From assembly GCF_018143015.1 (NCBI RefSeq), contig NC_054746.1:38876687-38940686 (forward strand): 64,000 nt of DNA, read 5' to 3'. Position numbers and translations under genes: made by a program. Positions within the stretch are counted from its first letter, which is position 1; every line of letters begins with the position of its first letter. The DNA comes from Lytechinus variegatus. Lineage: Eukaryota; Echinodermata; Echinoidea; Temnopleuroida; Toxopneustidae. Below the pieces are notes generated by a model that did not search any database, was not told the origin of the DNA, and saw only the letters and a program-made list of their open reading frames with translations. This document shows positions 2,126 through 58,932 of this stretch, one piece after another.

Positions 2126-3722
2126 GGTCGTGTGACGTAGATGAGGTGACACCAACTGTGTGGTTGGGTAAGTATATATTAACAAAAACAAAATCAGTAC
2201 CCATATAATTTTCAATGAAATTATTTGAATGGTAATATACAAATTGAACAAATGATAGTGCTTTCGTATATGAAGGAAAGTATATGCATACATTTCTCAT
2301 TACTATGCATTTGATGTACGATTCATTACATAATTATGAATCTGAGGGTGATTCTGAAATGGAGGCACGATAATGCAGTCTTCGTTTTTCAAACCCCTTT
2401 TTACTTGAAGGACTGATGTATCACTCTATATAAGAATTGTATTTTCTTTTACTTGAATAGGTGATGAGGAAGATATCAACAAATGCAAAGCAGATGAGAC
2501 GTCTTGTGGCCTGTTTGGTCTAGACTTCATCTGTCAGGATCCAAACGGTGGAGAGTTTGAACCATGTACAGAGGGAACCAAAGTCCTATGCGCTTCTCCA
2601 CCACCCATCCCTCTCGCTCCTCCTACCCCAGTCTCAACATTCCGTGTCATAGCATACAACGTCTGGGAGCTGAGATACCTCTACTACCAGAATGGTCAAC
2701 GGGAACGTACTTGTCGCATCCCTCGTGAGGTTGTTCAAATGCATCCTGATGTTGATGTGATTGTCTTCAACGAGGCATTTATGGGAGGGTGTTTCTCTGA
2801 GTTCAATTCTACCATTGGAGCCAGCATACTCACATTTCGAGATATTCTGACCCAGTATGGCTTCATCTACTACACTAATACTGTTGGTGATCCACCACAG
2901 TTACCAAAACTGGAAAATGGTGGTGTATTTATAGCCTCTCGTTGGCCTATCATCAAGGAAGATTACTGTATCTATAACGATTCAGTCATGGCAACGGCTG
3001 ACGCAATATCTGGAAAAGGTGCCGTTTATGCTAAAGTTGAGAAAACTGTTGACGGTACTAGCATGACTTATCACATTCTGGGAACACATTTGCAAGCAAC
3101 ATCGCGGCCTACAGCAGATTTTGTCCGTGTCTCACAGGCAGAGGAAATGCATGAATTGATGATGAAACAGAATATTCCCGATGATGAGCCAGTCATCTAC
3201 GCAGGGGATCTAAATGCCCGAAATGGAACGCGGCATGGTAATAATGTTATGCAAGCGCTTGATGCAGCCATTCCAAACTTTATCGGAGATCGAATTTACA
3301 CTTATGATGGACCTGAAAACGACCTCCTAATTTCAAACAGCACATCTTGGATCGACTATGCCGTCTTCAGTAAATCTCACCTTCAACCAAGCAGCTCTAC
3401 CCTAGAAGTGGTTCGACCAAGGTCTCAAGAACCGTTTGATGTATGCATGTTATCATTAGCAGTAGTACCAACTTATGCCAACTCTGAGAGGTGTCTCCTC
3501 AACAGGACGGTTACAGATCTAGCAGACCACTACGCTGTTATGGGTGTTTTTGATTTTGGTAGCACTACAACATTACCTCCAAGTTCGACGTTACCTCCTA
3601 CGATTGTGACTTCACAGCCTGTAGACCTGCTAACAACCGATTCTGGTACCGATGCTATGACAACCAGCATATTTCTTTTTCTTATCCTTCCTTTGTGGTT
3701 TGCCTTTGTCTTGAGCCAATAA
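2126..3722 (+). CDS. Sphingomyelinase C-like phosphodiesterase, copy 1 (first exon not in window)
   Basis: Exons 2126-2167 and 2461-3722 lie between tttcag/gtaagt and a tag acceptor, with a phase-1 junction; the signal exon must lie upstream. Known family reaction: Mg-dependent hydrolysis of sphingomyelin to ceramide and phosphocholine by the DNase I-like fold. Visible motifs in order are YNVWELR, VIVFNEAF (metal-binding Glu), GTHLQA (His), YAGDLNAR (Asp and Asn), WIDYAVFS and LADHYAVMG (catalytic Asp-His; the usual Ser before DH is Ala here). A Cys-rich segment precedes the domain (CGLFGLDFIC, CASPP). After it come a Thr/Pro-rich stalk and a hydrophobic tail (IFLFLILPLWFAFVLSQ), suggesting a GPI signal or membrane anchor. 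Activity and substrate are inferred. The catalytic domain has no intron. Confidence 0.85.
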
Positions 3723-9712: not shown

Positions 9713-12700
9713 CTATTTCAAAACAAGTCCCATCACAATGGCAAGTACTACCAAGATGTTAGGAATGCAACAAACAACACTCGAATCAGTCGTATGCGGA
9801 TATTCCGTAGCAGTTGATGGAGGGGATTCCATGTTATAATGAAAAGTACCCAATACAGCATAGTGATCAGATAGGTCTGTAATATTCTTTCGTTCAATGC
9901 AAAATTGAGAATTAGGGTAGCTTGGAATCGGGGATATTGCCGTCGAGCAAATCTCTAAAGGAGTAGACATTCGAGGCCTAACGACCTGTATTGTAGCAGC
10001 TTCAGGTTGAATGTGGGATCGACTATACAAGACATAGTCCAACCACCAGTTCGTATCGTTATTTTCGTCAAAAACATCATTGTTCTCGTGATCGTATGTG
10101 ACATTGAGTTCACCGATGATTGTGGGAAGTGTGGCGTCAAGAGCGTCAACGACGTCATCACCATTGGTTGTGTTCAGTCTGGCATTCAGGTCACCTCCAT
10201 AAATAACGGGTTCATCATCACCGATGCCTTGCTCCAGCATGAATTCATGGATGATTGTAGCTTGAGCAACACGAACATCGTCTGCATTCGGGGTTCGGAA
10301 AGCTTGCATATGAGTCCCAAAGATATGGTACATAACACTCTGTCCAGCAACAGTTTTATTGATCATGGTGTACACAACTCCTTTAGCCATCCACGAATAT
10401 GGTTCGGATACGTCGAAAACCCGGGAATCAGTCTTGACAATGGGCCACCTAGAAGCAACGAACGCTCCACCATTCTCAACTTTAGGGAAGGGTTCACCAA
10501 TGCCAACGGTATCTGTGTAATAGATAAACCCATATTGGTCCATGATGTCACGCATGGTAAGGGTACTTGTTTCAATGGTATCGTTGAAGGGGGCAAAGCA
10601 ACCTCCCATGAAGACTTCGTTGAAAACGATGACATCAATATCTGGATGCATACTGAAAAACTTATGTGGAATACGGCATGTTCTTTCTCGTTGGCCACTT
10701 TGCCAATAGAGATAACGTAGCTCAAAGACGTTGTATACAAGAACTCTAATAGTGGTGGCAGGAGTGGGATCAGTCAGGGGCACAGCAGGTGGTGATGCAC
10801 ACTTCACTTTGGTCCCAACGATACAAGGTCTAAGTGATCCTCCACTCGGATCCTCACAAACAAAATCAAGACCGAAGTGGTCACAATGCTCGGCACTGGC
10901 ATCACAGAAGTTTGCATCATCTTCATCACCTATTTTTAAAGAGAGAGTGGGAAACAAAATGAACTAAAACTTGTTAATTTCATTTCAGAAAATATCATAC
11001 TTGAAGCTTGTACTGTCATTTCGTTGTGAAAAATAAGATTCCATGAAACAATATATTGCTCAATTAATTGTCATTGATAATTTGTGTTATCATAGAGCGT
11101 TCTGACATAATTACGGAGCTTGAAAGTGTATACGTATATTCTAGTTTTTGTTCTAAAAAGGCAATTTTTATTTGTTTAGATGTTTAGTATCGCAAAAATG
11201 TCTTAATGACATAAACTACAGTTACATGCAGTCGGTTTATCTAAAAATAGCTCATGATCATGCACAGTACAAGGTCGTGCAAGAAAAATGAATTATCCGG
11301 TCGGAGGAGGGGGGGGGGGGGATACCAAAATTGATATTCAGGCTGTGTTACCGAAGCGACACAATTTATCACAAAAACGATGGTATGATGGTGTTTTTTA
11401 AACGCTGAATGGAAAGAAGTTGGCACACACCTGAGCGTATTTTGGGGAAAATTTGCATTGAAATTGTAAATTTTGATTTCGTCATTTCATTATCATGATT
11501 ATTATTTGGGGAGGGTGGATCACTTTTGTCCCTGCCAATGGTACATTAATATATGGTTATTGTCCAAACATTCAACGTCAAGACGTGGAAACCAATGTCC
11601 AATGCAAAGCAGTATCTCAAGAGCATCATCAAGGTATAAAGGTCATGACAAGATCATAAATAAATTTAAAAAACGGTGCCAAGAACACTTTACAAAAAGA
11701 GGATTACACATCCCTCCCAAAAATGAATAAAAATAGCTGAGCTTAGGAATATAGTAGAGTGCTTACGTGCAGTATTTAGACTTGAATCTATGTGAAGAAT
11801 CCCTACTATTAAGACATAAAACTAGCAACCTAAGCGTTTAGAGACATGTTTTGTGATAAGCGCTATACAAATGTTATTAATTATTATTATCATATTTCAT
11901 ATGCCAATCAGTATTAACCATTGTTCAGGTAATCGATTTAATATATGACTCTGCTTGATCCTTGGTCATATGGGGGTGTTTTACAAATATTAAGTATGAC
12001 TTTAAGTCACATGCTTTGGCACCAATGCACACATGTTAAACGCACATTCTTATTCATGGATACGAGGTGTTCCGCATCCCGTCACATGATCTGATAATTG
12101 CGATATTGTTCTAATTATACCACTGGGAACATAACATCTGTGTGAAGCACTCCTAGGTCATATTCTTAATCTACATGTAATTATAAAGATGCATGAATTA
12201 TATATATTTGTGTTAATATTCATCATGACATTCAAATCTTATGGAATAACTTACCCAACCATACCGTTGGCTGTCTCTCATCAACATCACAATTTTGAGT
12301 CTGACCTGCAATGAGATGTTTGATAATGCACAATTCTCCTTTGAATACTAATTACACGAATCATTCCATGGAATCAGCTTAAGACTTGATATGAGTTTAT
12401 GTTTTATTTATGCGTTTGAACTTATCTGTATTTTCCGAGGGAAAAGTACATGAAATCATTTGGGCCATAAAAAGAAGAATGTTTATAGTAAAGCCACACA
12501 GATACAAATGTCCCATCGATAAATAACATTGATTTACTTCCTTTATTTTGTTTTGATCGCCAGTGGAAGAAAAGATTAAATTACGTGAAACAATCCTCGA
12601 ATCTTTTTCCTTCATTGACAATTCCTTGATTTTTTTATGTTACTATGTAGGGTTACTTTTTATTGTATCTGTAAAACCTAAAGAGAGAGCGAGAAAGATA

Positions 12701-28600: not shown

Positions 28601-31050
28601 TGCTGTAATGAATGAATCAAGTTGCCAAATATGTCATAATTCAACAAAGAGTTGGTAGACATATTTGCAAACCCCTTGTCGATGAAATTAACCTGAGAGT
28701 TCATACTAAAAAGGGTTTATTAAATCGTTCTAATTCTAAATATTGAAAGGTGTTTTACAATGGATTTTAACGCAACCCTTGTAGGATTATGACATCATTG
28801 ACATCTGGATTTATATTTTGTTGGATTCATGCCTTATACCATGGTCACATTTGTTCTACGGCGGCCGTACGGCTAGTCGAAAATAGCCGTTTTATCAATT
28901 TTGATTCAAACCACCTATATGTAGTTGGACAAAAAAAAGTTTAAAACGGCCGTTTTCGACTCGCCGTACGGCCGCCGTAGAACAAATGTGACCATGGCAT
29001 TACTTTGGCGCGAATTCACTTCACTGCTGAATACCTACAAGCCTATGTAAAGACATAACATATTAATATGGTATCAAATTATTTGGGGAAGATATTCTTT
29101 ACGGCCATATGTAAGGATTATTTGTTAATTTAATATATTTTCCATTAATTGGGGATTTGTGAGGTGTCCCCTCCAGTCTTTTTCCGGAATTGTTTGGAAA
29201 GTCGTGAAAACACTAATGGTCTGAAAAGCAAAGTTTGTGAACTTGATGGATGCAGTTCTATTCTCAGGATTCCTAAATGTATACGGAACCACAATATGGG
29301 TGGAATTACCCGAATTCAAATATTTGTTTTCATATTAAACCATGGACTTTTATAAACTACGGTTTTTGGTAAGCGATATTTTGGCCAAACTACCTCTGTA
29401 AATTCACGCCATTATCAGTTCTGTCTTTTAATGCTGAAACAACTCATTGTCCATAGGTGAGCAAATTTAAATTTGAATGAAGTAAATAATTACGATTTCA
29501 GGTAATTATACCACATGTTATATGACTAATAGCTTTATCGGAATGTACTCGCACGTGATGATTTGCGGACTCTCGAAATTAGCACTTTCTTAATTTCATG
29601 ATTTATTATGATAAAAAATTAGAGCTTAGTAGACCCCAGAACTCTCTTTGTAGGCCTATTGATTTGTTTATCACTTTATGAACAGTAGGCCTACATGAAT
29701 CTGACAATTTATAAGGACAATATTATCATTTTTTGAAAGAGTATACATACGGTAACATAATTGAAAATGTCTTTTGCAAAGATGTTTTATTTTGTGTTAT
29801 CTCGAGTGCGAATTATTCTGAAGTTTCTTTCCCTTTGTCTTACCCCAGGTGGTGAGCAACAAGGCTATGACTGTCAAGATGAAACGCCACCTTGTCCACA
29901 CTTTGGTCTCAAGTCCATCTGTCATGATGATGATGGTGGAGATTTTCCTCCGTGCTTAAACGAAACCAAACTCCTCTGTGCCTCTCCACCGGCAGTTCCT
30001 TTGACCAATCCTACAGAAGTTTCAACCCTTCGAGTTCTTGCATATAACATTCTTGAACTACCTTACCCATTTTTTCAAGGCGGTCAAAGGGAGCGAACAT
30101 GTCGGATTCCCCATGAACTATTTAGGCTGCATCCCGACCTTGACGTCATTGTCTTCAACGAATTGTTCCAAGGAGGGTGTTTCTCTATCGTCAACCCTTA
30201 CACCAATTCAAGCGTTCTCAGTTTCAGGGACATTCTAACCCAACATGGCTTTGGTTATTTCACCGAAAACGTTGGAGAGCCCTTTTCATCTCCCCTCGTA
30301 GTAAATGGTGGGACCTTTATTGCTTCACGATGGCCTATCGTGAGGCACGACAGTCACGTCTTTACGGTTGCTGATAATACCACATTGGATGCTCTGTCTG
30401 CTAAAGGGGCAGTATACGCTGAGATCGTTAAAACAGTCGGAGATTCCGAGATGACCTATCATATCTTTGGTACGCACATGCAAGCTTCTGAGTCACCATC
30501 TGAGATAACTGACAGAGTTCGTGTTCAGCAAGCAGGAGAAATACGTGAACTGATGGAGAAACAGAACATATCTTCTACAGAACCAGTCATATATGCAGGA
30601 GATTTAAATGCTGAAAATGGAACGTCTCATGGAACTGATGTCGTCGCCACGTTAAATGCCACCCAACCGCCGAATATTGGAGAGTATGTCTACACGTTTG
30701 ATGGACCAATAAATGATCTCCTTGGACCGACTGTTGATGCTAATTATACAGGTTGGCTCGATTATGTACTGTACAGCAACAATCATCTGCAGCCTTTACA
30801 TTCATCTGTGGATGTGGTACGCCCTCGACTCGACCAACCCATAGAAATCTGCATATCTGCTAATGAGTCCATTCCAATTTACGCAGCATCTAGTCGATGT
30901 CTCCAACGTCTCCAAACTCGGGATCTATCTGATCATTTCGCGGTGCTAGGTGTCTTTGAGTTCCCATCGTCAGCAGTTGACACTTTTAACACGCTTTCAA
31001 GCTTTCTTTGTATATTAACTGGAGTAAGTGTCAGTCTTTTCATTCACTAA
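19606..31050 (+). CDS. Sphingomyelinase C-like phosphodiesterase, copy 3 (complete, 3 exons, 439 aa)
   Basis: Exons 19606-19681 (76 nt), 27805-27846 (42 nt) and 29849-31050 (1202 nt) have AG/GT boundaries and phase-1 introns and sum to 1320 nt. Residues 1 to about 24 (start MNVAVKFINHYYLVLILVGA) are a signal peptide; the mini-exon encodes LCIVNDTTPIVWLG. The single catalytic exon carries YNILELP, VIVFNELF, GTHMQAS, YAGDLNAEN, GWLDYVLYS and LSDHFAVLG, so all expected metal and acid-base residues of the family are present. A hydrophobic tail (LSSFLCILTGVSVSLFIH) suggests membrane anchoring. An in-frame ATG at 29767 gives an exon-like open start, but the splice acceptor at 29848 and homology to copies 1 and 2 favour the three-exon model. 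Linking the remote first exon over 8.1 kb is inference, backed by phase, length and the orphan copy. Confidence 0.85.
19834..20665. mobile_element. TIR element of the 'ggtattctgag' family
   Basis: Left GGGGTGGTATTCTGAGG and right CTCAGAATACCACCCC are inverted ends, continuing into 'attttatctt' versus 'gataaaat' arms. Length is about 832 bp. No transposase recognised. A related fragment with 'ggcggtattctgaac' sits at 19705-19833 and another, reversed, at 24836-24948. Confidence 0.7.
20668..21715 (+). mobile_element. 5'-truncated LINE with zinc-knuckle C-terminus and (cattgt)n tail
   Basis: The plus frame ending at 21077 contains LTRFRCGNHRLPITSGRF, then RICTICNTSK and DEFHYLFECPAF. This is the C-terminal C-x2-C...H-x4-C region found after the RT of many LINEs. 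The 3' UTR ends in about five CATTGT units (21673-21707). The element abuts the TIR element's right end and lies in SMase 3 intron 1. Clade not assigned. Host exon origin is unlikely. Confidence 0.7.
22103..24751. mobile_element. 2649-bp DNA transposon, perfect 56-bp TIRs and 8-bp target duplication
   Basis: The first 56 bases (starting CAACGAACGTAGAGGGCAGC) are exactly the reverse complement of the last 56. The 8-bp duplication GGCTCCCA flanks it at 22095-22102 and 24752-24759. A subterminal 'attttgtgaccactc' is also inverted between the two ends (near 22167 and 24377). CA...TG ends with 8-bp duplications fit hAT or P superfamilies. Interior frames are short: minus-strand 24525-24650 could encode a small peptide start, and 22771-22965 is GC-rich. 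No transposase was recognised, so it is called non-autonomous. Perfect ends imply a young insertion. Confidence 0.9.
24944..25121. mobile_element. Palindromic MITE, 'tttcataaagctgttcgtaag' family, copy A
   Basis: Arms with CCGTTTCATAAAGCTG and 'aagaacgactggtgatcc' face each other around a ~40-bp centre. The right arm ends CAGCTTTATGAAACACCCACC. Confidence 0.85.
25118..25215. repeat. G-rich dispersed repeat, second copy
   Basis: Inverted relative of 17846-17938, with 'ggattttgcacccggtgggg', 'gacctaattttggcgcccct' and a C12 run. Confidence 0.65.
25357..25530. mobile_element. Palindromic MITE, 'tttcataaagctgttc' family, copy B
   Basis: GTGTTTCATAAAGCTG and 'ctttaagaacgact' on the left are mirrored by 'agtcgttcttaaag' and a degraded right end at 25517-25529. 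It is about 240 bp from copy A and more diverged. Confidence 0.75.
25560..26530. repeat. Degenerate ~105-bp satellite
   Basis: Units contain 'gcgcgagctgaaaattttg', 'atattctgacct', 'aagcactttttgtaatcatgaa' and 'gatgggcatcta'. About nine repeats are visible, and a further piece lies at 26750-26920. The same unit occurs singly inside the hAT-like element at 32735-32790 and at 45740-45980. Confidence 0.8.
26935..27325. repeat. 26-bp minisatellite, about 13 units
   Basis: Consensus near 'ggcgcccctatgtcgaac' plus 'atcaattc'. Some units have lost or gained the 'ccctaggtcatgccctagg' insert. The unit is GC-rich against its surroundings and not a multiple of 3, so the open frame across it is fortuitous. 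Confidence 0.9.
27318..27430. repeat. Polypyrimidine tract, about 110 nt
   Basis: Nearly all C and T, directly after the minisatellite and before another 'ggcgcccccc'. Candidate for triplex-type structure. Confidence 0.85.
27900..28390. other. Part of SMase 3 intron 2, nothing recognised
   Basis: Starts with a G14 run at 27898-27911, then AT-rich non-coding sequence. Confidence 0.4.
28391..28546. mobile_element. MITE in SMase 3 intron 2, 'ttgcataaaag' ends
   Basis: Left CAGGGCGTCGTTGCATAAAAG and reversed right GGGTCCCGTCGCATAAAAG. Both arms continue with 'agtaactttgc' or 'ggtaactttgcc' and 'tatcca'. Confidence 0.8.
28839..28997. mobile_element. 159-bp GC-rich palindromic MITE in SMase 3 intron 2
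   Basis: CCATGGTCACATTTGTTCTA and TAGAACAAATGTGACCATGG are exact mirror ends, continuing through 'cggcggccgtacggc' on both arms. It is capable of a long hairpin. Confidence 0.9.
29000..29848. other. Distal part of SMase 3 intron 2
   Basis: AT-rich, no repeat or ORF of note; ends in the acceptor 'cttaccccag'. Confidence 0.5.
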
Positions 31051-37033: not shown

Positions 37034-40000
37034 ATGGTCATGGCGATAACAAAACTTTTCAGATTGCTGCGGTTTGAATTCTGGCTGTCAATTACGATGT
37101 CGATGTTGGTTTCGTCGTTAGCCGCAACATCAAACCCAATGTCTTCTTCCGATTTGGACACGACGATGTCTCCATCACAATCCACCGTCATCAATGACTT
37201 CGAATCGATGTCGTCGACCCCTATCACCACCTTTCAGACTGATACAAACCAATCACAGTCTCTACAGCCGTCCCATGGAATCAGTAATGATGACAAAATT
37301 CCAATATATTTGGGTGGCTTTTTCACCCTCGGAGGAAATTGGGATGGTAGTGGTATACTACCTGTGGTAGAGATGGCTTTAGAGCATATCAACAATCGAC
37401 CTGATCTTTTAGCTGATTATGATCTTAGGATGGTTTGGAATGATACACAGGTGAGTCTTTACCCACTTGAAATATACTGATTAAGCCTCAGAATATTCTT
37501 TTCATAAACCACTCTTTTTGTTAGGTTTTTATTGTCGATATTTTTTGTTTGTGTTGATTTATTTTTGTATACATGTATATCTATCTATCCATCTATCTAC
37601 ATGTATCTATCTATCTATATACATATATATCGTGTAGTACGTGTGTCTTTCATGCTTTTGAGTTACCGAGGCAATATCTTATCCTCATAACTAGTTCGAT
37701 GTTTTACTTTTATTTGGAACCTCATTCCATTGATGATGTTACTTTGTATGTAAGTCCCAAACAAATCAAAGAGCCCAGTGATGTCTCAATAAATTGAGGG
37801 GATGCATGAGGTCGAGTTTATTTCTAAATCGAATCACAACTAGTCTTGAGGACGCAATGATGATGACTTTTTAAAATCCTGTCATATACTTCTTCAATGA
37901 TGAAGAAGTATATGATAGGATTTTAAAAAGTCATCATTGTGTCCTCATGACTAATCACAACGCACTGCAGAGTGCTCAATCATTACCTTGGCACGGTTGT
38001 TATCGCGGAGAATTAAGACTTCAAGGAATAAAATCCTGCAAACAATTAATGTTTAGTAATGATTCTTTTTAATTGTTGATTCATCACTTCCGATGTGCTT
38101 CAAATAATTTTATACCGTGTTTCATGATAAACATTTGTTGCTATTTCTTTGGATCGTGATGAATGCATGTGTTTTCAGAGGGAGGTGGGGTATGAAATAA
38201 TGTGTCATAATTTGTATTTAATGCGTAATTTAGATAATATATCGACAGACTTGGATGATGGATATTGACAATTCGCTCAATTATGGGAGAGCAGCTCGCT
38301 GGCGGCATCCCAAACTGATAGTGCATTACCCCCCCCCCCCACACACACACACACAGTTTATTCGATTTTATTTTCAAACTGGATCATTATCTCAATAGAT
38401 CCAATCGAGCAAAGTTAGCTATGTAAATTTTCATTTTTCAGAAGTCAGTCCTAATTTTTTTAATGCTGTTTGTATTCATTATCATTCACCCGATTAATAT
38501 GCAAGAAAGTCCAGCCATCCTATCAAATAATATGCTTAGGTGAGATTATTGAAGCCAGCCTGTGCAAAATTATTATTCATTTTGACAGAGTCTGAGTTTG
38601 ATCAGTTTCTTTTGAAACCCATAAAGAAATTAAGTATATATCGTTAATCCAGGCACATTAATGTCATTACTCTGAATTTTAATATTTGCAGCAGGTAGAG
38701 AGAAGTGTTGAAAATACTGCATTCTTTTCTTCAGTTTCTTTAATAAATGCTTTGATAAGTGGGTACATCTTCCGTGATTTTGCTGATAGTGCCACAAAAA
38801 TTAAATCTACAATAAATCTACTGTGAGATGAATCCAGTCATGCATGCTTGTACAAACCAGCAGTGTACATTGATTTCAGATTTATATTCTCGATATTGAC
38901 ACATACCCTTCAACTCCCGCACTACCGAACTCCCACCCGCACACACACCAACCCTCACGCACACCCATTTCAGAAACTTCACACACCTACACTCTTCCTC
39001 TCATACATACTTTATTTTTGTTTTTAAAGGTTTATTTCTTCCCCTTCAAACATTTACAATAAAACATACATTATGATTGTCCAGTTATACGCTGTTTTCC
39101 ATTCATGAGAACAATAAAACAATTATTACATACACTGATATATACGCGTGCACACACATACGCGCCCTCACCCACCCACATGCACACACAAAATTAACAA
39201 TTTTTGTGATAATCAGAGAGAGAGATTGCATTTATTTCTGAAATAGTACGTGTATATCTGAGATATTACATTTTGAGATTGTTAATTTTGTCAGCCAAAA
39301 GTACCAAAATTAACAATCTCAAATGTAAAAAAGCTCTCAGGAATAAATTATTTTTGTGATAACATACTGTAATTCATATTCCTGCAAAAGCATGCAAATC
39401 TGTGATTGCTTTTTTTTCCAAGATTTGATTTAATTCCGCGTAAACTTATGATTCTGCGGTTGTCTTTATTTTTGTGGTTGTTTTTATTTCTGTAGTTTAT
39501 TTCTAGAGTTTTCTTATTGTTTGAAATTGTTTTATTTGCGAGATTATCTATTTCTAAACGATGACATTCATTTGTAAAATATAATGCTATTTCAATTACG
39601 ATATTTTTTATCTGGACGAGTCTTATATTTCTAAAATCTTTTATCAATGATTGACAAAATTCATTTCTGAGTTGTCTTTTATTCTCAATTCTATCCATTT
39701 CTGGTTAAATACTTTTCTTTTTGACTTATGTAGGGGAAGGCGGGGTAAGTTGAGCATAGGGGCAAGTTGAGCCACCAGCCCCAGGCCAATAATGAATGAG
39801 TCAGACATTGTGGTGGTGTCATGTATTGATGACCCATAGCATAACCCCTAACCCCACCACATTGTTTCCAACTTTGAAACAAAAAGTAGTTTTTTAGAGG
39901 GAAAAATATGAATTTCAGCCAAAAAAGTAAAAAAGAGTGTGAAATAGATAAGTGCTTTATAAACACACACGTCTTTAAAAATAATAAAGACATGATAACA

Positions 40001-50900: not shown

Positions 50901-53900
50901 CTACGCCTACCATTGTTCTCTTATTAATTTCTTTCACAATGTTAAAATGAAATTTCTGATATGTTTACTCGTCTCTTCTAAGATCTTATATGAGAGGGCC
51001 ATTATGTATTACCCACTCCCATAAGGGATGAAGAGCCATTATGGAGCAGTTTGCTCATTTTAATATTACTTAACAGTATAAGCTAACTGATATGATTTTA
51101 GTGGACATGAATGATCACCTCTGAATTTTTATTTTCTTTGACAGTGCGATGCTGGTCTAGGAACTAAGATCCTCTTTGATCAGATCTTCAGAAAACCTCA
51201 GAAGTTAATGATTCTTGGTCCAGCATGCTCTACTGCAACTCAAGCTGTCGCTGGCACTGCCCACTACTGGAATCTTGTTACGGTATGAATCAATTATCAT
51301 CTTGTTGCTAAAAAGATATATTACAGCCTATTATGTAAATACTGTCTGTTTCTAGATTATTTCCTATTTCATATTCTTTGAGAAGGAAAAAAGTGCAAGT
51401 ATGGTAGCGACTGTTAAACAGCGCGCATCAAGGAGATTATGTTTCTCCAATTTGCATTCTTACTTTTAAAAATGTAAGCATTTTATACGTTTGTTATTAA
51501 TCTTTGAACTTTATATATACATTTTTTTCTGGACGTAAAACGAAACGCGACTATTGTCGTTTTAACGTATGATGATTTAGGCTATCGAGTGGCCGTTTGC
51601 AGGTGTGAAACTTCGGGCTTCGGGCCATGGATGCATCTCATTAAAATGAATAGTAAAATATGATCATAGAAAGATAATTGCCATTGAGTTTCTGTTTCTG
51701 TTTTCTGTTTGTGGTAACTCCCGTAGGAACTCGGCAGGACACTATTTTGCTGGTAAACGCCAAGCTGGTATAAAACCAATTACCTATGAAACATTTTACG
51801 TCTAGGTTGAGTATAATTAGGTAATAGAAAGCTATAAATGAAGCATCGATAAGCCTTTTCACAAGATTTCGGTGTTGCTTAGCTAAATTTTCCCCTGCTA
51901 AACATGATTAATGCTAATACTGATCATGCTAATAAGCATTGGATGTCCTTCATCCTCCACATAATGACTATAATATGAATAGCGCCCATATATAAATATT
52001 GTTCTCGTAATACTAGCCGAGTCACTGGCGCTGATGCATGTCAGTTATTGAATTGAATTCTGGAATGACTCGGGTATGAAAACTGGATGATGCTATTGTC
52101 AAGATAATGTGTTTGAACTTTGTTTATCTTGTGATAAACAGAGTTGATAGAACCTCTCATCCTGTGCAATTCTTATTTTCTTCCATTTTCACAAAATGTT
52201 ATTTTGTAATATAACCATCAATATAAGTTAGACTTTGAATGAAATTGACTTTAACAGAAGATGAAGATAGTGATTCTACATTTTATGAGCTCGACGATAT
52301 ACAATATTCTTTCCAAACAATTTTCATATTATGGGTGTGCGCTGATATTTTCCCACGAACCGAGCTGTAATTAATTTTCAAACTTTCATGGAAATATTTT
52401 TGGATGAATATTTGATATGTATTTGGATATTATGTTATCTTAAACATACGAAAGTGATCTAATGTTAGTAGTTAGGTCACATGTTAATAGACTGAATTAC
52501 ATATTTTTTCTCTTTGTTTTTCTAACTGTACGTCTTCAGTCATCTTATATAACTAAATGTCCGATGAACAGCGATAGAATCTATGCTTTTCGATGCTTGG
52601 TTACAATGTGTTATTATTTTTGGACCACACATTGGACTTCAGTTGGTATAACCGTTTCCTATATATGAAATAGATTGACGTTACTGTTGAGGTTCAATTT
52701 GAACTGGAAATCACATGAGATAAGATTCATCTAGAAACGGAAGTCAATCCGTATTCCTAGGGGAAATCTTTCTTTAACACAAAAATACACGCATAATTAA
52801 ATATAGGTAATGATTTTCGATTTTCAGTTTAAAGTATTTTATGTAGCTTAGAACAATTCTTTTATAAGGAAGTTAACACCAATCATGCAAAAAAGTCCTA
52901 GGAAATGATAGTATACAAATAATGCACGTAAGCGCGTGCATGCAGGGCCAAATAATGAACGATGTACGAGAAGAGCCAATGGATATACCGCACCGAGGTC
53001 CGCAGGACCGAATGCGGTATATCCATTTGGCGAGTCGAGCACAGAGTTCATTATCTGGGTCCTCTATGCACAAGAATGCGTGCACAGTTTGTTTTATACA
53101 ACCCCATGTTACTGAGTCGCCCCAAATGCTATATTTTATCTAAATTCTAGATAATTCTAGATAATTCCAGACCTCGCACTATCCTGCACTCTGACGTCAG
53201 AGTGCAGGATAGTACTTTTGGTATGACGTCAGAGTGCAATAGTGCGTTTTGGATGCAATAGTGCAATTCGCTGAATTTCATGTGATCCGATTTGGACCAA
53301 TCAGATCACAGAACATTCTTGGGAGTTGGGTAATCTTTACCATTAAATACCTTGCATTGCGTGATATTGATTACTCTTAATATCCTGATTTTGTTTTAGA
53401 TGTCTTATACAGCTTCATCACCAGCGTTATCCAACATGGTGGATTATCCAGCCTTCTACCGAACCTATATGCCTGATACATTATTTAACCCAGCTCGTAT
53501 TAGACTTCTAAAAGATTATGGTTGGACACGAGTGGCAACGCTACACGAAAATCATGAAATATTCTCTCTAGTAAGATGGTATATCATGTTTTATACATGC
53601 TTACAGAATAAAACCACTGAAGCATAAACCTGATACAAATTGATTCGTCTATAGAGGTTCATTCTTTGATTATGTTCTTCATGTGATATTAATTAATATG
53701 TCCTCCCAAATCAAATTTGAATATGAATAATTTTAGATGTTTATTAGAAAAACATTGTCTTAGAATGACAAAAATGAGGATGAATCCAAATTGAAGCATA
53801 ACATGCAGATAAAGAATTATTTTGCTTATCAAAATGATTGATGGAATATTCTACTGGGTTTAGTTGGTGGTTTTATTGTGTTCATGTTCAAGCGATAGCT

Positions 53901-56900
53901 AATCTAAGATTCAGATATGATCATAACGTGTATTAAAATTGTGTAGATGTTTATCTCCATTCCTTCAATTCTTTAGATGTCTTACGCTTCCGCCTCGTCA
54001 ATCTTGTCAAATAGGAATAAATTTCCATTGTTCTATCGGACCTACATGCCTGATGCGATGTATAACCCTGCTAGAGTAAGGCTTATCAAGGAATATGGAT
54101 GGACAAGAGTCGCTACTATTCACGAGAATCACGAGTTATTCTCGCTCGTAAGATATTTACCCCATTTTGTGTCTTGGCATGTCACGTGATTTCCGTTCAC
54201 TAGCCAATAATCTGCACCGCCCAGCATGTTTCTCCTCCTTTAATACACTGCACGATTAATTTGTGTTTACGTCTGATTATGCATGTCTCTGGTAATTCAT
54301 TAACTTTTAACAAAAAAAGCAAACGTGCTACACTGAAAAATGTTGGTATTACACATTCGAACTGTTATTCTTTTATTTGAGTAGTATTTGAATAGATTTG
54401 AAGCATAGTTTTCTTCAAACGAATACATTTCCTTAAAAATATCTGTAATTTTCTTTTCGAAAAACACATTAACACTCCTTTGAGTCTCATTCTTAGAAAT
54501 TCATCACTATTTGACGATTGATATCATGGATACATAAGAAATAACCAGAAATTTTACATATTTGTAATGTCCGTAACGCCAATTTAATAACCGTAACACA
54601 ACATTAATGGTTAGTTTTGGTTTACCCTTAATCAGTTGTATCAAACTATCTTCTTTTATTAAGCAGGACGTTTCCCTGTCTCACACGAAGTTGACGTCTT
54701 AATGCTTAAGCCCACAAAGCTTTCACAAAATATAATAGCAGATTCCAAATATTTCATATCACATTGTGTCTGATAACTAACAAGTGATAAAAAAGACATA
54801 TTCAAGTTCAGACCGATAACACTTCAGGGGAAAATGTTTGGAAAGTATTTTTAAAAAGTTTGGAAGAATAAAAGGATTTACTTGTCTTGAGAGTGACCTT
54901 TTTCTAAGTGAAATTTTTCACCAAAATAATGAATAGGCTTCTAGCTTGATACAGGGGTTGGTCTATAGAAACCTATAGCTCACTAGAGTGCTTCCAACAG
55001 TCATGTATGCAATCTGGTTTCCAATTATTAAATAATGTATATTCTTAATGTCAGGTTAATAAGATACATCGTTACTTCTTCGTTGAGGAGGAATCAACCA
55101 TACATTTTGGAGAGGAAAAGTTCATTCCCATAATTCACAAGGTGGCTACTATAGGCAGATGTCTGTATGTTTAAAGGACAAGTCCACCCCAACAAAAAGT
55201 TGCATTGAATAATAAGAGAAAAATCCAACAAGCACAACGCTGAAATTTCATCGAAACCGGATGTAAAATAAGAAAGTTATGACATTTTAAAATTTCTCTT
55301 AATTTTAGAAAACTGTTATATGAACATCCTGGTCTGTATGCAAATTAGGGAACTAATAATGTCATCCAATCACTATTTCTTTTGTATTTTATTATATGAA
55401 ATATGAATTATTCTAATTTTCCCCTTTTTGTCATGTGAAAGAAAGTTTTTTTTCTCTCTGAACATGTGGAATTACCATTGCTTTAACATTTTATGGTTCA
55501 ATCAAGTTGGTGCCTATTGTCAAATTTGTAAAAATTGAAATGTTGTGTAATTCATTCAATAAAAAACAGAAGAAATAGTGAGTGAGGGACATCATCGACT
55601 CTCTCATTTGCATGTTGCTGACTTGTGCATATAACTATTTTGTGAGTTATATTTTTTTATATAAAACTTTAAAATGCCATAACTTTCTTATTTTACATCT
55701 GATTTTGATGAAATTTTCAGCGTTATGCTAGTTGGATTTTTCTCGATTGATTCAAATCAACATTTTTCTGGGGTAGACTTGACCTTTAACAGAAAATTTG
55801 ATATATTCAGAACTGTATAACAACATTTACTGAATGAGAGTGTTTGATGTTACACCTTGAAATAGACGGCACGCTCTATAGCACCTCAAATGACAGTTTT
55901 AACACCATATTTGCTCGTGCTTGGCATGTTCCAATAATTATATAAGTGATTGTATGCTCTAAGAAATCTCATCGACCCATCTGTTAACGTCTTCATTTTA
56001 AAACCTGTACGCCTATTCAAAAGAAATCAGTCTTGACGAAAAAAACTTCATGTGCTTGTAGTGCTTATTTCAATTCGATATAATAACAGTTTTGCATGAA
56101 GAGTTAAAACTCACACATGGTCTGGAAAAAAATACAAACAATTATCATGTTTCTGTATTTTCATATTATGAAAATACAATAAGGCGAAGGATGGTTTGTA
56201 ACGGTTCCATTAGCCTAATGGTTCTTGGATTTATATCACAAAGGGTGTGATAACCCATGTGTATTTTTATCATCCATTAAGTTGTATTCTGACGGGGACA
56301 CGTGTAGAATATGTAAACAAATCGATTAACCTAATGGACAGGTACAATTGGCATCTACGATACAGCCGACAATATGAAAAAAAAATAGTAACGTATTTCA
56401 AGTAATGATGGCCCGCAAATATAAGGTATATGAATAACGTGCTCAATAAAAAAGGACTGCATGTAATAACCATTATTAATTAGTTGATCAATTGTAATAA
56501 GGCTTTATTAAAATATATATTTTACTTTACGTACGATGTCACGTCTATTGTACAATGCTGTATAGGATATTAGACATACTTTGTTGTTATTGACCAAAGT
56601 GATGAATTTTTAACAATTTTTAACAATAAATAATCTACCCATCGTTCATCAAATAATTAGAAAGTGTAGGTAAAGTTTACGAGTGGGATGATAGCTCTGA
56701 GCATAATGGTAAGATACTTGATAAAACAACAGGGATTTTTTTTTTTACACAAGATGCAAAGAGCACCACATTTGGGGTTCATTGAATCGAATGTTCCCGC
56801 ATGTGCAGAATGAATGATTTTGGTTACATGTGTTCTGTTCAACCTGATTGCTGAGAGAGAGAGGGGGGGGGATAAAGACATCTTACGAAATGATAGCGCA

Positions 56901-58932
56901 TCGACTTGGCATCGAACCAGGGTTACCTCCTCATTATATGAGACCACGTACCGCTCGACCAACTGACCTATTGCACCTCCTTAGAGTTACTGTAGGCGCA
57001 AGGCAAGCAATCATCTTTTTCAAATTAACCTTGAGCTTCATATTGATTTCAGCTAAAACATAATTATCAAAGCTCTCTGCAATTTTAATGTATGAATGCT
57101 ATATAAATGGGGAAGATTCAAAGGAATAAAAATGTGGGTTTTTTTTTAAGAGGACAAATTTTTCCTTCTAGGACTAGTAGCATGATAACAGGACAAAATA
57201 AATAGAGAAAGAGGGGGCGCTGGAGAGAGATTTGCGATTGCGAGTTCCAATAATATATATATATATATATATTTAATGTGTTTTTGCCGAAATAAATTCA
57301 AATGCATTTTAACATCGTTCAAAAACACATTAGTCTTGGAAATACAAGAGAACCTGATGCGAATGAAAGAAAGGTGGATTGGAAATAAAAAAAAAAAAAC
57401 ACCGAAACTGAAAGCGGGAAATGGAAATAGCTTCCAAATGCCACCAAAAAATAATCTTCCGGAATGGATGTCTGTTAGAATACAAACTGTTTCTTATGGA
57501 AATCCACCATAAGTCAGACTAAGTCTTACCTGCAAGAGAAAGATAGGGAGAGAGAAAGAGAGAGATGGGGCGGGGGCGAGAAGGAGAGAGAGAAGGAACC
57601 ATTATAAAATGAAGGATGGGATTATGGGAGTAGTGGAAATGAATAATACGACCATGGACATGATGGAGTTTTGAAGATCTAGAGTGTTGTTCGTTTATTA
57701 TCAACTGCTTGAAAAACGTTTGATAGGTTTTAATTAATATTTTAGTCGATTTATTTCTATAAAGTTTCTAATCACAAATTCTTCTTTAATTTAATTCTTG
57801 GACTGATTGAAATTAAACCAAATTTAAGATTTCAAAGTGGTTTATCCAGACCTCGCCATACATTTAAGAAATGCATTGTAAGAAGAAAACAAAGATGGAT
57901 CGCAAGCTGTATCCATTCAAACATTTGAATTTATGATGGACTCAGGTTACTCTCAAATTACGTGATCCACACTAAAATAAATGATTATATTTGATATATC
58001 TCTAGAATATTCGTATTGTTTTATAGTAATCATCAAGGTTTATATACAATGATTATTCAATTTTCTGATATGTTACTCTCATTCAATGATAAAGTTGCAA
58101 ATAAGATTTTTTTAAGGCATGAAAATTATTTATTTCTCTAACTATACTTTCTGTCAGCCTTTTTTTATGTTGAATTCAATTCCACTATACCTATTAATGA
58201 TAGATAAAGAGTACTATATTCTTGGTAGTTTTTTATTTCATTTTTATGTTTGACGGGTAGCGGATAGTTCAGTCAGGTACAATCACTAAGGGTAAAAGAG
58301 TCCTAATTTCATTTCATTTATGTGTAAGTCGAATTTCCATTGTACTTTTTTGTTTATTTTATTGCCATCGATGCTACGCCACTTGTTATCGTCATTATTT
58401 TGTTAATAATTGTTTTTTTTTCTGCACTGTAATTTTATTTAAATGCAGTGCTTTATAAAAGAAATGTTTCATCTTTGTAGATACCAAACAATTACATTTT
58501 AGGCACCATTTTAATAAGAAAAACATATTGATAATGTATATCCAGATGATCGCAAGGATGAATTAAAAAACAAGCCCGAAAATAATTAGTTTCATTACAT
58601 ATATAATTTTTATTTTTGCCATGAAATCAATGTTCAAATCAAATACACACTATAAAACCAGTCAGAGATTTATCTTTTACAGGGATTTAATTGTTGACAA
58701 TTCGTCCTATAAGCTCCCCTTTTCCTTTAAAATGCCCTTCACGGTATGTTTTACAGTATGCAGTCGATATGATGATATCGCTTTTAGAATTATATTCCTG
58801 AAGTTTGAATTTATTTTATTCCTTCTATAGGCGATCGATAATCTTCTTACACTCTTGAGGCAAGCTAACATCACCATCATCACATCAGAAAGCTTCTCAG
58901 AAAACCCACGGAATCAAGTAGAAAATCTCAAG
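37034..58932 (+). CDS. GABA-B-type metabotropic receptor, 5' part (signal peptide and first ligand-binding lobe); continues past the window
   Basis: Phase-0 exons are 37034-37450, 51145-51282, 53400-53570 or 53977-54147, and 58831-58932. The ATG at 37034 opens a signal peptide (to about residue 31), then a Ser/Thr-rich linker, then the periplasmic-binding-protein lobe (IPIYLGGFFTLGGNWDGSG, LPVVEMALEHINNRPDLL). Exon 2 holds CDAGLGTKILFDQ and GPACSTATQAVAGTAHYWNL; exon 3 SYTASSPALSN or SYASASSILSN, FYRTYMP, NPAR and YGWTRVAT; exon 4 ITSESFSENP...VENLK. These align without gaps to GABA-B subunits around the CSS...WNL...SYGSSSPALSN region. The Ser after Cys (human GABA-B1 Ser246 by memory) is kept, as in GABA-binding subunits, whereas GABA-B2 has Pro there. 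It should be a class C GPCR at the plasma membrane; the second lobe and seven-helix part lie outside the window. Confidence 0.85.
37841..37953. mobile_element. Fold-back element, ~55-bp arms with almost no loop
   Basis: 'gaggacgcaatgatgatgac', 'tttttaaaatcctgtcatat' and 'acttcttca' are mirrored by 'tgaagaagtatatgatagg', 'attttaaaaagtcatcattg' and 'tgtcctca'. Located in receptor intron 1. Confidence 0.9.
37954..39289. other. Receptor intron 1, no gene
   Basis: Contains a C11(AC)n tract at 38329-38356 and CA/CCC-rich sequence at 38930-39190. Nothing else recognised. Confidence 0.4.
39290..40806. mobile_element. TIR element 'gcagccaaaag', copy 1, host to a nested transposon
   Basis: Left GTCAGCCAAAAGTACC with 'aaaattaacaatctcaaa' and right 'tttgagattgttacttttggc' ending GGCTGCCC are inverted ends. 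The interior repeats 'atttctgaga'. Subtracting the nested element leaves about 656 bp, close to copy 2 at 46407-47007. Confidence 0.75.
39733..40593. mobile_element. 861-bp TA-target (Tc1/mariner-like) element nested in the preceding repeat
   Basis: Ends GGGGAAGGCGGGGTAAGTTG and CAACTTACCCCGCCTTCCCC are inverted and flanked by TA on both sides. Copy 2 of the host repeat (46.6 kb, reversed) has the unoccupied site 'gacttatgtactattcgtcc', which proves the insertion point and TA duplication. 'ggggcaagttgagcc' recurs inside. No transposase recognised. Confidence 0.9.
40807..44245. other. Receptor intron 1, AT-rich, one repeat tail
   Basis: 'tttgtaaagcgccatataagc' plus (ATT)n at 41815-41870 is a SINE/LINE tail. 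A T/C-rich tract with CT repeats lies at 41237-41262. No ORF with recognisable domains. Confidence 0.45.
44246..44430. mobile_element. 185-bp MITE with ~48-bp inverted ends
   Basis: Left CAGATATTGACTGATGGG with 'ttggaccacc' and reversed right CAGATATTGACTAATGGGG with 'ttggaccgcc'. The centre has 'gggaaaata' and 'tattttccc'. Confidence 0.85.
44739..44785. mobile_element. Terminus of a G-rich hAT-type element
   Basis: CAGGGGCGTCGATCCATTTT and a G12 run match, in reverse, the nested terminus at 33110-33162. The opposite end was not located, so only the terminus is called. Confidence 0.55.
45172..45665. mobile_element. Inverted pair of Penelope-type terminal motifs
   Basis: Arms 45172-45226 and 45605-45665 are inverted copies ('aagacgaaagct', 'aagaatgg', 'gcgtcatcttttgag', 'gacctc'). 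The first, read on the minus strand, has CTGACGA, AGTC...GAC and GAAAGC, as at 1888-1918. Probably the remnant of an element with inverted terminal repeats. A (TGAATAAA)n-like stretch lies between them. Confidence 0.5.
45740..45985. repeat. Satellite monomers, 'gcgagctgaaaatttt' family
   Basis: Two or three monomers of the ~105-bp unit that forms the array at 25560-26530. Confidence 0.65.
46407..47007. mobile_element. TIR element 'gcagccaaaag', copy 2, carrying the unoccupied target
   Basis: GGGCAGCCAAAAAGACCAAA starts it; 'tttgagattgttaattttt' closes it, the outer right end being lost. Inverted relative to copy 1. Interior 'agaaataaa' repeats. Confidence 0.75.
47008..47440. repeat. Tandem duplication, ~210-220 bp unit
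   Basis: 'tttcggcgcat', 'ttactgtttcaagccaactc', 'gcacatggaccccatattt' and 'gatgaaaatgacatgga' variants occur from 47015 and again from 47239. A third partial copy is at 47735-47825. Confidence 0.8.
47441..50784. other. Receptor intron 1, no gene
   Basis: AT-rich. A 27-bp direct duplication of 'cggctgtcattgctcatgta' lies at 49207-49256. Nothing else recognised. Confidence 0.45.
50785..50855 (+). mobile_element. tRNA-derived SINE head
   Basis: 'tggtccagcgtgccgcgcc' and box B-like 'gggttcgattacc', without an acceptor stem. Confidence 0.45.
51283..52920. other. Receptor intron 2, no gene
   Basis: AT-rich non-coding. No repeat family recognised. Confidence 0.45.
52921..53086. mobile_element. 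Palindromic MITE upstream of receptor exon 3A
   Basis: 'ggccaaataatgaac' and 'atggatataccgca' on the left are mirrored by 'tgcggtatatccat' and 'gttcattatctgggtcc' on the right. Confidence 0.75.
53178..53231. promoter_or_regulatory. 36-bp perfect palindrome with CRE core, plus a second CRE
   Basis: 53178-53213 is a perfect palindrome centred on TGACGTCA (53192-53199), with 'ctgcactc' arms. TGACGTCA recurs at 53224-53231, followed by the same 'gagtgca' word. It lies in the intron, 170-220 nt before exon 3A. It may be an ATF/CREB site or merely a hairpin. Confidence 0.5.
53400..53570 (+). other. Receptor alternative exon 3A
   Basis: 171 nt, phase 0 at both ends, between 'ttgttttag' and 'gtaagatgg'. 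Encodes 57 residues starting MSYTASSPALSN and ending NHEIFSL. Matches the GABA-B segment SYGSSSPALSN...NPTR...WGWKKIAT. It keeps Ser where human GABA-B1 has Ser269 (numbering from memory). Confidence 0.85.
53977..54147 (+). other. Receptor alternative exon 3B
   Basis: 171 nt, phase 0, between 'attctttag' and 'gtaagatat', 406 nt after exon 3A. 39 of 57 residues match 3A. Most substantial changes cluster in the first 18 residues (SYASASSILSNRNKFPLF), where the residue matching Ser269 is Ala. An open frame and good splice sites argue that it is used. Confidence 0.85.
54148..55174. other. Receptor intron, no gene
   Basis: AT-rich, nothing recognised. Confidence 0.45.
55175..55785. mobile_element. 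611-bp piggyBac-like MITE with TTAA target
   Basis: TTAA (55171-55174) precedes AGGACAAGTCCACCCCAACA and TTAA (55786-55789) follows the mirrored 'ggggtagacttgacct'. Imperfect inverted arms extend over 100 bp, including 'taagaaagttatgac' and 'tttcatcgaaaccgg'. I know this end sequence as common in echinoderm-type genomes. Confidence 0.85.
55790..58830. other. Receptor intron, no gene
   Basis: AT-rich with (TA)n at 57250-57271 and GA-rich tracts at 57535-57597. A minus-strand tRNA-like SINE head lies at 56893-56990. Open frames here have no family features. Confidence 0.45.
56893..56990 (-). mobile_element. tRNA-derived SINE head
   Basis: On the minus strand 'taggtcagttggtcgagcgg' (box A-like) and 'ctggttcgatgcc' (box B-like) flank a CAT-containing anticodon-type arm. 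The acceptor stem does not pair. Confidence 0.5.

Follow-up and report, generated by a model that had tools for sequence, protein, structure and literature searches.

Mutually exclusive exons within ligand-binding domains are known from ion channels. In insects, exons 3 and 6 of Rdl and exons of nAChR alpha6 are alternatives of this kind, and their choice alters ligand potency. Class C receptors are known to gain variety chiefly through gene duplication or alternative splicing at their ends. The flip and flop exons of the AMPA receptors (GRIA1-4), as described in the accessible text of PMC8257547, are tandem, similar exons of equal length (115 nucleotides, nt), one of which is used at a time. 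Here we describe a pair of exons, 3A and 3B, in a GABA-B-like receptor gene of the sea urchin Lytechinus variegatus (RefSeq LOC121419238), located in a stretch of 64,000 nt (C7:38876687-38940686, the window) whose numbering is used throughout. We consider it likely that 3A and 3B serve this one class C receptor gene as mutually exclusive alternatives.

A tandem pair of exons under coding constraint

Exons 3A and 3B are each 171 nt long, open, in phase 0 at both ends and bounded by AG and GT, with a spacing of 406 nt (Table 1). They share 39 of 57 residues and 115 of 171 nt; the first 18 residues hold 10 of the 18 that differ (hypergeometric P = 0.010). The resemblance is far above chance: a blastn comparison of 3A against 3B gave E = 1.6e-12 across 126 positions, and each copy separately matched human GABA-B1 (3A 9.4e-13, 3B 5.5e-13), aligning gap-free over 56 residues. 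The two are thus a tandem pair: neighbours of like length and equal phase with related sequence. A first-pass annotation of the window had given the coordinates, lengths, phase, spacing, open frames and AG/GT edges of the pair, the flanking ends at 51282 (exon 2) and 58831 (exon 4), the identity of 39/57 and the clustering of differences in the first 18 residues; all of these were reproduced on recomputation, and its assumption of an echinoderm source was also right.

Differences between 3A and 3B fall 16/6/34 on codon positions 1/2/3 and create no stop (second versus third position, P = 8.4e-6). In a drift control, 56 random changes were placed on 3B in 20000 runs. The mean identity fell to 22.7/57, an identity of 39 was reached in 0/20000 runs and a stop-free frame was left in 994/20000. 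The dN between the exons is 0.19-0.22 with silent change saturated (values from two of four methods), and, compared by eye, 3A retains 12 of the 14 exon-3 positions that are invariant or nearly so in the family. Because the codon-position bias, the drift control, dN and the family positions agree, 3A appears to have been read as protein through most of its history; on this evidence it is not a dead copy. Both exons combine GT-AG sites with the signature of coding constraint.

The best relative of the locus is isoform X1 of LOC121419238 (P0003), which matches it. Of its 1174 residues, 1172 lie exactly on the genome in 19 blocks and the remaining two at block edges; this placement begins at C7:38913720, and the gene extends beyond the window, to C7:38959634. 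P0003 is spliced 1-2-3B-4, using the edges at 51145, 51282, 53977, 54147 and 58831, and skips 3A, neither edge of which is used. It represents a cluster of 12 sequences, and isoform X1 is the one model examined. Exactly one copy of exon 3 is present in 41/41 proteins carrying the segment (P0003 and 40 relatives; 43 scanned). In the predicted structure of P0003 (mean pLDDT, the predicted local distance difference test, 72.5; exon-3 part 73-95 in blocks of ten), exon 3 (residues 186-242) begins within a strand (184-187), contains a helix (211-224) and a strand (229-235) and ends within a further helix (238-253). Since the exon ends sit inside a strand and a helix, the two copies together would be predicted to repeat a strand-helix-strand unit with the frame kept, in line with the duplicated fold unit foreseen by the annotation. 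One-or-the-other splicing, its principal proposal, is supported by exon anatomy, coding constraint, the single copy per family protein and the deposited 2-3B-4 order; the use of 3A in transcripts is the part that we infer. The exon pair is, we judge, real, constrained and very probably mutually exclusive.

The edges of exon 3 are alike in six other family loci of the same genome (L011 on C17, L012 on C15, L013 and L015 on C1, L016 on C2, L017 on C11; L014, a near-copy of L013, was left out). No convincing second copy of exon 3 was found within about 1.5 kb either side of these six; the best additional match, at L017, had E = 0.022 and lay on the opposite strand. In the urchin gene each of exons 1 to 4 is in phase 0, so skipping of exon 2 would keep the frame. 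The Acanthaster planci isoform X2 (P0027) has no exon 2 segment and passes directly from exon 1 to exon 3, either by exon skipping or through a model error. What looks like a stray exon copy, 86% identical to P0003 364-421 and interrupted by two stops, lies at C10:26870053-26870226. The window also holds three related open reading frames (Table 1) that presumably resemble sphingomyelinases.

Table 1. Features of the window discussed in the text
Feature	Position	Strand	Remarks
Exon 1	37034..37450	+	P0003 1-139; signal peptide region and start of ligand lobe; exact translation match; donor gtgagt
Exon 2	51145..51282	+	P0003 140-185; equivalent of GB1b Ser130; exact match; AG/GT edges; phase 0
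Exon 3A	53400..53570	+	Candidate alternative pocket exon; Ser at GB1b Ser153 site; AG/GT edges, open, length and phase of 3B; coding constraint; not in P0003
Intron between 3A and 3B	53571..53976	+	406 nt
Exon 3B	53977..54147	+	P0003 186-242; pocket exon of the deposited model; Ala at Ser153 site; exact match
Exon 4	58831..58932	+	P0003 243-276; exact match
Dispersed hairpin repeat	52930..53280		Upstream of 3A; RNA fold of 52930-53250, z = -9.54
Endonuclease/exonuclease/phosphatase open reading frame	2457-3722	+	Pfam PF03372 above cut-off
Endonuclease/exonuclease/phosphatase open reading frame	9713-10963	-	Pfam PF03372 above cut-off
Endonuclease/exonuclease/phosphatase open reading frame	29761-31050	+	Pfam PF03372 above cut-off

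The receptor and its ligand pocket

Pfam assigns to P0003 an ANF_receptor ligand lobe (109-474) and a 7tm_3 domain (664-929), with an insert of around 135 residues (about 475-611) after the lobe. The 34 top fold matches are all GABA-B chains; a Venus flytrap and a GABA-B-type seven-transmembrane part are both present. Among solved chains the ligand lobe is closest to GB1 (324.7 bits versus 232.3 for GB2) and the membrane part has its best match in GB2. The relatives recovered by two protein searches are echinoderms or hemichordates (34/34 in the first, 38/39 in the second), many of them from Amphiura filiformis. Pfam Lectin_C scores above cut-off in P0005 and P0006 (Amphiura) and P0010 (Ptychodera), below cut-off in P0004, and is absent from P0003 and P0011; the P0003 insert, which draws no such call, has both helices and strands in the model. 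The urchin gene falls within a little-known GABA-B-like family of echinoderms and hemichordates, in which several receptors carry a C-type lectin insert.

The residues at which P0003 was compared with GB1 are those assigned roles in GABA contact in the accessible text of PMC6429233, where docking puts Ser130 and Ser153 on the ligand carboxylate. Mutations of Ser153 shift affinity differently for different ligands, according to the part available of PMC7411975. P0003 keeps Trp65, Ser130, Tyr250 and Trp278; His170 is replaced by Tyr and Glu349 by Leu in both forms, and Ser153 is found only in 3A. The full contact set of GB1 (Trp65, Ser130, Ser153, His170, Tyr250, Trp278, Glu349) is thus not kept in the aligned sequence. 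Among 42 family proteins none has His at position 170 and three have Glu at 349. This alignment includes P0003 (P0013, P0031, P0036 and P0045 were dropped beforehand) and was read against a GB1 reference sequence, with the Lytechinus assignments agreeing with the alignment to solved GB1 chains. Because His170 and Glu349 are lost, the natural ligand is probably not GABA, or is bound otherwise. The description of the gene as a GABA-B-like receptor holds for the GB1-nearest lobe and the GABA-B-type membrane part, and has to be qualified for the two missing contacts and for membership of an echinoderm and hemichordate family in which several receptors have a lectin insert. Exon 3 of the C15 locus, the only exon of that locus that was read, is by eye much more GB1-like. 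The C17 paralog (L011, L024) has a single exon 3 with Ser at the Ser153 site, and by eye is similar to the starfish ‘GABA-B subunit 1-like’ proteins P0046-P0048.

Each exon of the pair codes for the same stretch of the upper lobe. It opens with the end of a strand, followed by the loop that grips the ligand carboxylate in GB1, then a helix and another strand, and closes with the first part of a further helix. At the loop corresponding to GB1b 151-155, 3A reads TASSP and 3B ASASS. Gap-free alignments to solved GABA-B1 chains place Ser in 3A and Ala in 3B at Ser153 of GB1b, which we take to be Ser269 of GB1a in the offset numbering; the annotation had made the same assignment. Of the 42 family proteins, 15 carry Ser at this site, 15 carry Ala and 12 some other residue; the starfish proteins most like 3B are among those with Ala. 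The Ser130 site is Ser in 39 and Ala in one, with a gap in two. A variable site beside a fixed Ser130 looks like a place at which selectivity may be tuned. The annotation had proposed that the Ser/Ala difference could yield two ligand or ion sensitivities. A link between Ser269 and calcium forms the background to that idea; our literature search for the link found no paper. With GABA contacts lost in both forms and the site so variable within the family, a switch in calcium-dependent GABA affinity is a weak prediction; a switch in ligand selectivity is the better reading of these sequences.

We envisage that 3A would replace 3B in certain cells or stages, with help to make up for its weaker splice sites, and that the receptor would then carry TASSP in place of ASASS in its pocket loop. 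The swap would alter ligand selectivity or affinity and leave the insert, membrane domain and G-protein coupling unaffected, such that one gene could probably make two differently tuned receptors. Alternatively the exons may be mutually exclusive while the swap acts on folding, dimer contacts or trafficking and not on the choice of ligand. The other eight of the 18 differences do lie beyond the first 18 residues, in the helix and strand part, and the flip/flop exons act at a dimer interface (PMC8257547, in its accessible text). Against this, the pocket loop has the higher density of differences, among them the Ser153 site itself, and we regard an effect of this other kind as unlikely, though the strongest of the competing explanations.

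Splice-site strength and the choice of exon

The splice sites of 3A score lower than those of 3B (donor 5.5 versus 7.4, acceptor 1.8 versus 8.4). Both exons fall within the ranges of the 11 other donors (3.6-10.3) and 11 other acceptors (-3.0-10.0) of the gene. The weaker 3A sites suggest that 3B is probably the default and 3A regulated; they also fit a little-used 3A.

Several observations weigh against regulated, mutually exclusive use. The sole model examined, P0003, omits 3A. Both 3A sites lie under the intronic 95th percentiles (AG 5.4, GT 6.8), hence 3A could be little used. A protein search with words found only in 3A gave four matches of five candidates and no close carrier of 3A, although the search was insensitive, since P0003 was also unlisted. 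The structure prediction covers the 3B form. There is also no convincing pairing device in the introns: when nine region pairs were each compared with 40 dinucleotide shuffles, one pair beat all 40 (the 3A-3B intron with the 600 nt that precede exon 4, z = -2.7) and the other eight were equalled by 6 to 29 of 40. A role for that pairing as a splice switch is unproven.

It could be, then, that 3A is a relic or is rarely spliced, once used and still open but contributing a small share of present transcripts, with 3B doing the work. The weaker splice sites and the deposited model without 3A would fit, as would the similarity of the starfish proteins to 3B and the repeat some 120 nt upstream of 3A. 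The open 3A frame, its strong codon-position bias and the family positions it has kept, all in the face of saturated silent change, argue for continued use and make a relic improbable. That 3A and 3B are independent cassettes, some transcripts carrying both in frame and lengthening the lobe by 57 residues, is very improbable: both are phase 0 multiples of three and the 406-nt intron is in principle spliceable, but P0003 skips 3A, the segment occurs just once in each of the 41/41 family proteins that carry it, and the exon ends are modelled within a strand and a helix.

Returning to mutually exclusive use, transcripts with both exons or with neither would keep the frame. Nonsense-mediated decay could therefore not enforce the choice, and exclusivity would have to come from splice-site choice or from loss of misfolded protein. 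Simple steric blocking is unlikely because an intron of 406 nt is too long, and no spliceosome clash is visible as both exons have GT-AG edges. The hairpins upstream of 3A were considered as an RNA-pairing switch and rejected, since they belong to a dispersed repeat. Of 654 candidates 40 were scored, and 39 of these are further copies at 89-94% identity; the repeat is not thought to be part of the switch.

Age of the pair and comparison with known systems

Exon 3B is closest to starfish exons (48/57 and 49/57) and 3A to that of Amphiura P0006 (44/57, above its 39/57 to 3B). Outside exon 3 the Lytechinus gene groups with a Diadema protein (98% in the Shimodaira-Hasegawa-like approximate likelihood ratio test, SH-aLRT), in a tree that contained no true GB1. 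Two trees of exon 3 were compared, both of 57 columns and without P0003, whose exon 3 is identical to 3B, or four proteins in which the segment differs in length. In the 44-row tree 3A is unplaced; the approximately unbiased test rejects a grouping of 3A with 3B (p-AU 0.029) and does not reject one of 3A with Amphiura P0006 (0.337). The 31-row tree, which is the same set minus seven further relatives and six urchin paralogs, places 3A among brittle star exons (92/88) and 3B beside two starfish (88/90), and does not reject 3A with 3B (p-AU 0.128). These affinities suggest that the pair may predate the echinoderm classes. We advance only tentatively, as somewhat less than an even chance, that it was already present before sea urchins parted from starfish and brittle stars, 3B descending from the exon that starfish kept and 3A from the brittle star version. 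One of the two tests rejects 3A with 3B, and 57 columns are too few to settle the age of the duplication.

Literature searches at the level of titles and the beginnings of abstracts found no case of mutually exclusive exons for receptors of the GABA-B, Venus-flytrap or metabotropic kind. GABA-B receptors appear in a four-species survey of sea urchin transmitter genes, the accessible text of which holds nothing on LOC121419238 or its splicing (PMC12467107). The type of switch is known from ion channels; its placement in the pocket of a GABA-B-like G-protein-coupled receptor was not found in those title- and abstract-level searches. If true, a splice switch at this loop of the pocket would give one gene several receptors that differ in selectivity and share their signalling part, and in-frame double inclusion would offer a simple case for how exclusivity holds without nonsense-mediated decay.

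GABBR1 resembles the urchin gene in that the urchin lobe is nearest to GB1 and the exon-3 edges are common to the gene and to the GB1-like exon of the same genome. It differs in that the urchin receptor has an insert between lobe and membrane part, a membrane part nearest to GB2 and has lost His170 and Glu349. GB1a and GB1b diverge at the N-terminus and not in the lobe, whereas the urchin pair lies within it. The lectin-insert receptors P0005, P0006 and P0010 belong to the same family as the urchin gene, but one exon-3 version is visible per protein, as seen in protein sequences only. The exons of insect Rdl and nAChR alpha6 are likewise alternatives in ligand-binding domains, in their case of ion channels with another fold. 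Like 3A and 3B, the AMPA flip/flop exons lie in tandem, resemble each other, are equal in length and belong to the ligand-binding region of a transmitter receptor. At 115 nt, however, double use of flip and flop shifts the frame and should lead to nonsense-mediated decay (PMC8257547, in the part available), whereas two 171-nt urchin exons stay in frame. The flip/flop choice, as far as that account goes, concerns the dimer interface of an ion channel; the urchin pair would place a comparable choice in the ligand loop of a G-protein-coupled receptor.

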